DNA of 40,882 nucleotides. It comes from Phycisphaerae bacterium (GTDB lineage: Bacteria; Planctomycetota; Phycisphaerae; Sedimentisphaerales; Anaerohalosphaeraceae). Shown in pieces: positions 21,603-27,884 of this stretch. A program made the translations under genes and the position numbers. Location: contig JAOUFG010000012.1 of the NCBI GenBank assembly GCA_029858345.1, positions 1 through 40,882 of the forward strand, read 5' to 3'. The notes under the pieces were generated by a model. It had not been told where the DNA came from. It saw nothing but the letters and a program-made list of their open reading frames with translations, and did not search any database. Position 1 is the first letter of the stretch. Every line of letters starts with the position of its first letter.

Positions 21603-23684
21603 ATGGAAACGGATCTGACACAAGTCCGAAATATCGGTATCATGGCCCACATCGATGCGGGCAAAACCACAGTGACCGAGCGTATCCTGTATTTCAGCGG
21701 AAAGACCCATAAAATCGGCGAAGTTCATGATGGAACAGCGGTTATGGACTTTATGCAGGAAGAACAGGAACGGGGGATTACGATCACGTCTGCCGCGACG
21801 AAATGTCCGTGGAAGGGGTATGATATCAATCTCATCGACACCCCGGGACATGTCGATTTTACGGCTGAAGTGGAGCGTTCGTTACGGGTACTTGACGGGG
21901 CGGTGGCCGTTTTTGACGCATCCGAAGGGGTTCAGGCGCAGAGCGAAACAGTCTGGCGGCAGGGTCAGAAATACCATCTTCCATGCCTTTGCTTTATCAA
22001 TAAAATGGACAAAATCGGTGCTGACTTTGCGATGTCGGTGCAGAGCATTCGTGATAAACTTCTGGCCCATCCGGTGCCGGTGCAGATCCCAATTGGTGCG
22101 GAGTCCGATTTCAGTGGATTTGTGGACTTGCTGACCATGAAAGCGGTCTTTTTTAAGCAGGAGGAAACGGCTGCGAGTTTTTGGGAAGAAGAAATTCCTG
22201 CGAATCTTTGTGATGAGGCCGAGCAATATCGCCATGCCATGATTGAAGCGGCTGCGGACTACGATGAAAAACTGATGGCGGCCTATCTCAACGATGAGCC
22301 GTTAACCCCGGAACAAATTGTCAGCGGCCTTCGTAAAGGCACTTTAGAGGGGAAATTGCAGCCGGTACTGGTCGGGTCGGCTCTTCGGAATATGGGGGTT
22401 CGTCGATTATTGGATGCGGTAACTCTCTATTTGCCTTCTCCGCTTGAACGCCCCGCGGCGGTCGGCTTTGAAAAAGGCGATGAAACAAAGCCGATCCAGA
22501 TTGTTTGTGATTCTGAGGAACCCTTCGTCGGACTGGCGTTTAAGATCACGGCCGACAAGCATGGCGACCTGTATTTTGTCAGGATCTACAGGGGGGCATT
22601 GAAAACCGGGAGCCGGGTTCTGAATGTCAACCGCGATCGGAAGGAAAATATTACGCGTATTTTCCAGATGCATGCCAACAGCCGGAACATTCTTGACGTT
22701 GCCCATGCGGGGGACATTGTCTCTGTTGTCGGTCTGAAAGAGACACTTACCGGCGACACGCTTTGCGACACTCGCCACCGCGTGATGCTTGAAAGCATCT
22801 CTTTCCCGGAAACGGTTATCAGTATGTCGATTGAGCCGCGTTCTGCGGCGGATCGGATGAAACTGTCCGAGGCCCTATTGATGCTTCGAAAAGAAGACCC
22901 CACGTTTGTGTTTAAGTTTGACGATGAAACGGGCCAGACCATCATCAGCGGGATGGGCGAACTGCACCTGGAAGTATTGGAACATAAACTGGTGCGTGAT
23001 CTTGGGGTTAATGTGCGGGTCGGCAAGCCCCGTGTGGCATACAAGGAAGCCATCAGCAAGATGGCCAAAGCGGAAGGTAAGTTTGTGCGCCAAACAGGGG
23101 GGCGTGGTCAGTACGGCCAGGTTGCCATCTCCATCGAACCCTTACTTGAAGAGGATGGCCACTATTCCCGCAAAAATGAGTTTGAGAATGCGACTGTCGG
23201 GGGCGTGATCCCCAAGGAATATATTGGGTCTGTGAAAAATGGTGTTTTTGAGGGGTTGTCAAGTGGATCGCTTTCCGGCTATCCTGTTGTTGGAGCTAAG
23301 GTTACGTTAATTGACGGGTCCTTTCATGCGGTCGATTCGTCTGAAATCGCGTTTGAGCAGGCTGGTGTTTTAGCGGTCCGGGAGGCGATGCAAAACGCAG
23401 GCCCTATCCTGCTTGAGCCGGTCATGCGTGTTCAGGCGGTTGTTCCGGAGGCCAATTACGGAACTGTTCAGGGCGGTCTTATCGCCAAGCGAGGTGAAAT
23501 TACGGATACGCATCTCCATGGGAATATGCGTGTCATTGACGCCAAAGTTCCCTTGGCGGAAATGTTTGGGTATTCCGGGCAAATCCGCAGTGCAACGGGC
23601 GGCAGGGGCAGTTTTTCGATGGAGCCCTTAAGTTATGAAAAAGTTCCGGAACAAATTTCAGAAAAAATCTTAATGGGCTATTGA
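21603..23684 (+). CDS. fusA: Elongation factor G
   Basis: EF-G (693 residues) is the GTPase that moves tRNAs and mRNA after peptide transfer. G motifs are intact: [23 protein letters not shown] (switch I), DTPGHVDF and NKMD. Domain II follows, then domain III with [10 protein letters not shown], domain IV with [10 protein letters not shown] and domain V with [14 protein letters not shown]. Switch I is of canonical EF-G type rather than the spirochaete/planctomycete spdEFG type I remember, but some genomes carry several EF-G paralogues, so whether this is the main translocase or a second form is unproven. It lies between two gaps as a one-gene unit, with no tuf after it. The SD is weak. Confidence 0.94.
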
Positions 23685-23720
23685 CAAGATCGAGTTCATT
23701 TGATAAATAGGAATGTTTTC

Positions 23721-23769
23721 CAGCCGAAGCGAGCGGCAAAAGGAATTTGCCGCGTATCGAGTTGGGCTG
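23721..23769 (+). promoter_or_regulatory. Two-level stem-loop after fusA
   Basis: GCGGCAAA-AGGAA-TTTGCCGC (23733-23753) is a perfect 8-bp hairpin. Flanking CAGCC (23721-23725) and GGCTG (23765-23769) can close an outer stem, with CGA/TCG partly pairing between. There is no U-tract. It begins 36 bases after the fusA stop and could protect the fusA mRNA 3' end or act as a terminator of another type. Confidence 0.4.
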
Positions 23770-23926
23770 TGCATTTCGAAAAATAGAGATGATACAGGGA
23801 TGGCAATGAGGGCCGATCCGGCTGTTTTGACGGGTTTGACCTGTTAAAATGGGCCGAAAATGGCTCCAAACGCCCGATTGTAGTTGGGCCTCAAATTAAG
23901 GAAGACGAATAGATGTCTTTCCTGCC

Positions 23927-23956
23927 TTGAACAAAACGCCGTTTTTTTGATAAAAT
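23927..23956 (+). promoter_or_regulatory. Probable promoter of the S10-spc-alpha unit
   Basis: TTGAAC (23927-23932), an 18-base spacer and TAAAAT (23951-23956) with an upstream TG (TGATAAAAT, extended -10) form the best sigma70 match before rpsJ. The start point would be near 23963, giving a leader of about 100 bases. Confidence 0.5.
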
Positions 23957-24062
23957 GACGGTATTTTCGGATTTTTTCTTGTAAAGAAGAAGAAATGTGT
24001 GTATTTTTACCGGCTTTCAATAGTTTGATAGCGATACTGTAGGTAGAAAATAAGGGTAAGCC

Positions 24063-27291: not shown

Positions 27292-27335
27292 ACGCCCACA
27301 TGATTGATGAATCGCCAGAGAGCAAAGGTTAAAAA

Positions 27336-27884
27336 ATGCTGAGTGGAAAAAAATTAACAAATCTATGTAAAAAGCAGGGTGTCAGTGACAGTCAGTTGGC
27401 TGAATATCTGGCACGCGGCGGCATGAGCCAGGACGATGCGATCAGCGCTGTTGGTAACTGGAAAAAATGCCTGTATTCGCCGACCCCCGGCAAAGAGGAT
27501 GTTGAACGCCTTGCCGCTGCACTGGGCGTCGAAGTTGGCGCTATTTCAGAATGGCGCGTCAGTTACCGGTATGCACCGATGTCCGCCCGAAAAGCACGGT
27601 TAGTGTCGCAGTTGATTGCGGGCCGGGAAGTTCAGGATGCACTGGACCTGCTGACGTTTACGCATAAACGTGCGGCACCGGCCATCAAAAAACTGCTTCA
27701 AAGCGCGATTGCAAATGCGGATGAACAGGAAGCGGATGTTGATAATCTATTCGTTTCTGAGGCCCGCGTTGATCAGGCGGGCCGCCGGATCGGAACCAAG
27801 GCATGGCACCCCAAAGATCGCGGACGAGCTCATCCGATTCGCAAAGAAGCCAGCCATATTCATATAACGGTATCGGAAGGTTAA
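27336..27884 (+). CDS. rplV: 50S ribosomal protein L22 with N-terminal HTH-like domain
   Basis: The protein has 182 residues; bacterial L22 normally has about 110. Residues 74-182 are a complete L22 (RVSYRYAPMSARKARLVSQL through RRIGTKAWHPKDRGRAHPIRK), with the tunnel-loop region intact. Residues 1-73 are extra and look like a Cro/XRE-type helix-turn-helix: KKLTNLCKKQGVSDSQLAEY, then NWKKCLYSPTPGKEDVERLA and LGVEVGAIS. AAAGG (27324-27328) is 7 bases before ATG 27336, and no start with a good SD lies at the L22 core, so the extension is probably translated. Its role is unknown; it could bind rRNA or its own mRNA. Confidence 0.95.
   Translation: MLSGKKLTNLCKKQGVSDSQLAEYLARGGMSQDDAISAVGNWKKCLYSPTPGKEDVERLAAALGVEVGAISEWRVSYRYAPMSARKARLVSQLIAGREVQDALDLLTFTHKRAAPAIKKLLQSAIANADEQEADVDNLFVSEARVDQAGRRIGTKAWHPKDRGRAHPIRKEASHIHITVSEG

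Follow-up and report, generated by a model that had tools for sequence, protein, structure and literature searches.

A predicted Cro/C1-type helix-turn-helix domain fused to the N terminus of ribosomal protein uL22 in Sedimentisphaerales

Does the uL22 gene of a Phycisphaerae bacterium encode a genuine additional domain ahead of a complete ribosomal protein, and what could a DNA-binding fold be doing there? The gene lies in the window, a contig stretch of 40,882 nucleotides. An earlier note had read an unbroken frame from the ATG at 27336, with AAAGG 7 bases upstream, into a complete L22, and this reading was borne out. One open frame of 182 residues extends from that ATG to 27884 on the forward strand, and its product scores 104.6 bits against Pfam PF00237 (cut-off 28), with the match starting at residue 77, and 92.9 bits against NCBIfam TIGR01044 (cut-off 73.65). 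The extra domain that the note saw on L22 is likewise real, although it takes in residues 1-75 rather than 73 residues. The gene sits between rpsS and rpsC, the usual S10-operon order as read from the neighboring open reading frames, and is single copy, with one match in the 99% complete source genome. Translation from a downstream start was rejected: M82, the sole internal methionine near the core, would cut off the conserved uL22 start, and its absence from relatives argues further against initiation there.

Chance is ruled out as the source of the extension because 53 of 59 relatives (including G042, a weak match) have it fused to L22 and beginning with ML, or in a few cases MI, at the same place. 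The extension is thus a genuine protein segment fused to uL22. L22 was not found at all in the assemblies G001, G002, G006, and G013. In G006 the S10 leader described below lies at a contig end, and the operon was therefore probably cut there. G043 and G046 have a diverged or inserted form of the extension, and so does G042. The G043 protein (L085, family f5) carries insertions behind the NW pair and in the stretch separating helix 2 from helix 3, and it is the most divergent form seen in the order. All Sedimentisphaerales genomes that yielded an L22 carry the extension, always fused to it. In a scan of public genomes, the best 80 of 495 relatives all aligned from residue 1 or 2 of the window protein to residues 179-182, and many of these 80 loci are labeled Sedimentisphaerales.

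The earlier note had suggested looking for the same extension in L22 throughout Phycisphaerae, and such a survey found it order-wide and in two further families. A profile of the extension, run on 298 genomes from this class, matched the order (families f1-f7), f8, and f110, with the other families matching weakly. The f8 and f110 extensions are likewise fused to L22; the proteins of f9, f10, and f11 begin as ordinary L22. Beyond the matching groups, 392 Planctomycetota genomes gave one weak match only, in an unrelated frame of 912 residues. In the other Phycisphaerae operons examined, about 60-140 nt separate the rpsS stop from the conserved L22 start (counted only where an L22 anchor was found), which is too small for such a domain. 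A search for a stand-alone extension gene in the extension-bearing genomes gave nothing close to the fused domain, the best non-L22 match being partial, with an E-value of 3.5e-4.

The earlier note had described the extra segment as Cro/XRE-like and had named a structure prediction lacking a helix-turn-helix (HTH) fold as the outcome that would speak against it. That outcome did not arise. AlphaFold2 modeled the extension alone with a mean pLDDT of 92.7 and five helices by DSSP (Table 1), and the pLDDT of the full-length AlphaFold model was 89. The top Foldseek matches shown from the PDB were Cro/C1-type domains with probability 1.00 and E-values of at least 0.05, such weak values being common for so small a domain. 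Structural re-alignment (VIA) gave Z scores of 9-10 over 62-68 residues for C.Csp231I, P22 c2, SinR, and others, the best being 10.0 over 68 residues. The window protein alone falls below every Pfam HTH cut-off. Among 44 orthologues, matches at E-values of 0.1 or lower were found to HTH_31 (23), HTH_19 (20), and HTH_3 (20), the best in this set being 8.7e-8. A weak TniQ sequence match overlaps the same part of the extension. The model, the fold comparison, the orthologue matches, and the conservation described below support the prediction of a compact, five-helix, lambda-repressor-like Cro/C1 (XRE) fold on a complete L22. In the full-length model helix 5 passes almost without linker into the first uL22 strand (residues 72-80) and therefore the domain should stay close to the subunit. 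The five-helix fold is shared with Cro/C1 domains such as C.Csp231I, P22 c2, and SinR. Unlike typical XRE domains, it is fused to a ribosomal protein, its stretch between helices 2 and 3 (ARGGxS) looks longer, and it shows no conservation at the presumed base-reading positions.

Table 1 Features of the uL22 gene and of the head of the S10 operon, in window coordinates
Feature	Coordinates	Strand	Basis
Structured leader RNA at the S10-operon head, between fusA and rpsJ	leader 23685-24062, element 23721-23779	+	covariation
Shine-Dalgarno-like AAAGG, 7 nt 5' of ATG 27336	27324..27328	+	sequence
N-terminal extension of uL22, residues 1-75, predicted Cro/C1 (XRE) HTH fold	27336..27560	+	sequence, profiles, AlphaFold, conservation
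Predicted helix 1, residues 4-14	27345..27377	+	AlphaFold2 and DSSP
Predicted helix 2, residues 18-26	27387..27413	+	AlphaFold2 and DSSP
Predicted helix 3, recognition-helix position, residues 32-43, closing with invariant N41-W42	27429..27464	+	AlphaFold2, conservation
Predicted helix 4, residues 53-63, holding invariant D55	27492..27524	+	AlphaFold2, conservation
Predicted helix 5, residues 67-70	27534..27545	+	AlphaFold2
Complete uL22 core, residues 77-179	27564..27872	+	PF00237, TIGR01044
Tunnel-hairpin loop of uL22, DQAGRRIGTKAWHP; the loop of other Phycisphaerae (DEGPTIKRFQP) is shorter by 3 residues	27771..27812	+	alignment

A profile built from the Sedimentisphaerales extensions scored 37-63 bits against those of f8 and f110 and at most 8.7 bits against ordinary XRE domains of five genomes, indicating that the order and f8/f110 share one fused domain. 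On these profile scores all fused copies are a single family, and separate acquisitions of unrelated XRE domains by f8 and f110 are disfavored. A separate XRE gene or a recent paralogue as the source was also rejected, since in every genome the profile gives only weak matches beyond L22 and the XRE domains of the five genomes do not exceed that same score. In a tree built from 12 further proteins of the operon, the order stands apart from an (f8,(f110,f11)) clade. The tree of L22 cores gives the same separation, and an AU test mildly rejects grouping all extended cores as one clade (p 0.02). Since L22 cores and operon proteins give concordant trees, a transfer of the entire L22 gene from one clade to the other was rejected. 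The patchy distribution points to old losses or transfer: either a common ancestor had the extension and repeated losses followed, or the 5' portion of the gene passed from one lineage to another. Note that f11, the sister of f110, has no extension, which indicates that the domain is dispensable, at least in evolution.

The residues kept within the extension bear on its function. Across 46 proteins M1, N41, W42, and W73 never vary, and N41, W42, P51, D55, and W73 are invariant in 80 members of the order. In these 80 proteins lysine or arginine occupies position 6 in all 80, position 44 in 76, position 40 in 70, position 27 in 67 (the remainder mostly histidine), position 48 in 62, and position 58 in 60. 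Among the conserved basic positions and the N41-W42 pair are residues that close the recognition helix or lie in the loop behind it. The window protein itself has glycine at position 40 and serine at position 48. The net charge of the extension averages +3 and is +1 in the window protein, so the domain is only mildly basic. Positions 36 and 37, which by manual alignment would correspond to the base-reading glutamines of 434 repressor, are variable (mostly V/A/I/L and A/S/T, respectively), which argues against a kept operator and speaks against the sequence-specific binding of DNA by dimers that marks XRE transcription regulators. This pattern appears to suit contact with an RNA backbone better than the reading of a fixed operator.

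Comparison of relatives gave dN/dS values of 0.08-0.28 for the extension and 0.02-0.10 for the L22 core, with dS near saturation in several pairs. Judged by these substitution rates the extension is under purifying selection, and its fold has been preserved intact over a very long time. The same data bear on a near-neutral passenger, that is, an old fusion lacking a specific function, tolerated outside the ribosome and perhaps trimmed. Non-synonymous change in the extension runs at about two to six times the core rate and many sister lineages lost the extension or never gained it, as would be expected of a passenger, but the low dN/dS ratios, the five residues invariant across the order, and retention of the whole fold throughout so diverse an order leave this explanation with very little credence.

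The earlier note had named rRNA binding, recruitment of a factor, and regulation as possible functions, with no preference among them. The reading that we rank first, and consider moderately probable, is that of a constitutive domain of the 50S subunit near the tunnel exit that contacts rRNA or a neighboring ribosomal protein. The HTH domain would be made along with every uL22 and be carried on the outer, tunnel-exit side of the subunit, where the uL22 N terminus lies. Its old DNA-binding surface (basic residues in the last part of helix 3 and in the next loop, with K6, R27, and R58) would now bind rRNA or a neighboring ribosomal protein, and its role may be that of a constitutive structural or assembly element akin to the Cro/C1 HTH of MBF1/EDF1. 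The HTH of EDF1/Mbf1 is sandwiched between helices h16 and h33 of 18S rRNA on the small subunit (PMC7486125), and uL22 lies at the rim of the tunnel exit (PMC5071890). The rRNA-contact reading is favored because the basic flanks of helix 3 are conserved whereas the base-reading positions vary, and because of the EDF1/Mbf1 precedent and the place of uL22 on the exit rim.

The mild basicity of the extension and its absence from f11 speak against this reading, as does the lack of a matching gap in 23S rRNA that the domain could fill: among 11 genomes (three of the order, three of f8, and five lacking the extension) no deletion or other change of 23S length tracks the extension, the comparison being made without the source genome, where the search found no 23S. 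Large insertions, which may be intervening sequences or introns, occur in two 23S genes: L246 (G401, family f109) has about 450 nt extra around E. coli position 1151-1175, and L239 (G037, family f4) about 290 nt around 1851-1875.

An HTH at the exit could instead be a docking platform that recruits a nascent-chain or quality-control factor, such as deformylase, trigger factor, SRP, or a lineage-specific protein, in which case its conservation would be due to protein contacts rather than to rRNA. The exit rim on which uL22 sits is the docking place of such factors (PMC5071890), and the domain has few fixed surface positions and many that vary. However, trigger factor is found alike in genomes with and without the extension, with no link between the presence or absence of the two, and we consider a docking role unlikely. 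Replacement of trigger factor by the extension was rejected on the same grounds, trigger factor being present throughout.

The operon upstream of uL22 holds a second element (Table 1). The leader RNA comprises two helices in which seven pairs show changes in both partners, and 87.7% of its cells are paired, versus 34-52% for slid versions. It occurs once in each matching genome, namely in 17 Sedimentisphaerales genomes, with one weak match elsewhere, and it was not detected in f5, f8, or f110. It is present in f4 even where fusA was not found beside rpsJ, indicating that it belongs to the S10 operon. The leader had no match in Rfam and a search for mimicry of 23S rRNA found none; it is a candidate new ribosomal-protein leader. 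Just 5' of the leader, within 23681-23708, a TTGACA box overlapping the fusA stop and followed by an AT-rich stretch was seen by eye and is a possible S10-operon promoter.

Autoregulation through leader RNAs is common among ribosomal proteins, L4 of E. coli being an example. Given a repressor fold, that general commonness, and the covarying structured leader with which this operon begins in Sedimentisphaerales, free uL22 might bind S10-operon leader RNA, or promoter DNA, through its HTH and thereby repress its own operon whenever there is an excess of ribosomal proteins. The distributions do not agree with this, as f5, f8, and f110 have the extension and no detectable leader. Moreover, the residues presumed to read bases vary and are hydrophobic, and short inverted repeats upstream of rpsJ, compared by eye, gave no shared operator apart from the leader hairpin. 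We regard autoregulation as distinctly unlikely. A two-function uL22-HTH, which would be both a ribosomal part and a dedicated sensor of free uL22 that binds leader or promoter and closes a feedback loop, is very doubtful.

We compared the protein with known systems. A complete core above both cut-offs and the place between rpsS and rpsC are common to this protein and bacterial uL22 in general, to which the window protein adds its 75-residue HTH and the Sedimentisphaerales three tunnel-loop residues. Between the conserved D and KDRG the loop has 14 residues across the order and 11 in f8, f110, and the others sampled (some longer stretches were reported automatically, and the printed examples showed the same loop pattern). 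The added length falls where the tunnel constriction is formed. EDF1/MBF1 and archaeal MBF1 likewise have a Cro/C1-type HTH, one that binds the ribosome via rRNA; they are, however, free small-subunit factors rather than parts of a ribosomal protein and have an N-terminal region of their own. MBF1/EDF1 is a separate protein that combines an MBF1 region with an HTH at its C terminus (PMC7486125), whereas here the HTH is N-terminal and is followed by uL22. The Mycoplasma pneumoniae L22 has a lineage-specific extension that is partly ordered on the ribosome, and the excerpted text of that report mentions no HTH fold (PMC9534751). In the L22 fusion PRK12279 the extra part is C-terminal to the core, unlike in the window protein, which scored 54.6 bits against the PRK12279 equivalog (cut-off 526) with the L22 part alone aligned. 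Chloroplast uL22c, from an unrelated lineage, has terminal extensions that nearly double its size, and the excerpt of PMC5071890 names no HTH domain in them.

Ribosomal proteins have often gained extensions. No HTH on L22 was reported in the open-licence papers searched, nor did they describe a universal ribosomal protein into which an intact repressor-type HTH had been incorporated. A domain sitting on rRNA would be a clear example of a DNA-binding fold re-used as a ribosomal part, at the very site from which nascent chains leave the ribosome; a regulatory domain would represent a new kind of feedback by ribosomal proteins. Both readings predict visible extra density on the 50S subunit throughout a whole bacterial order.
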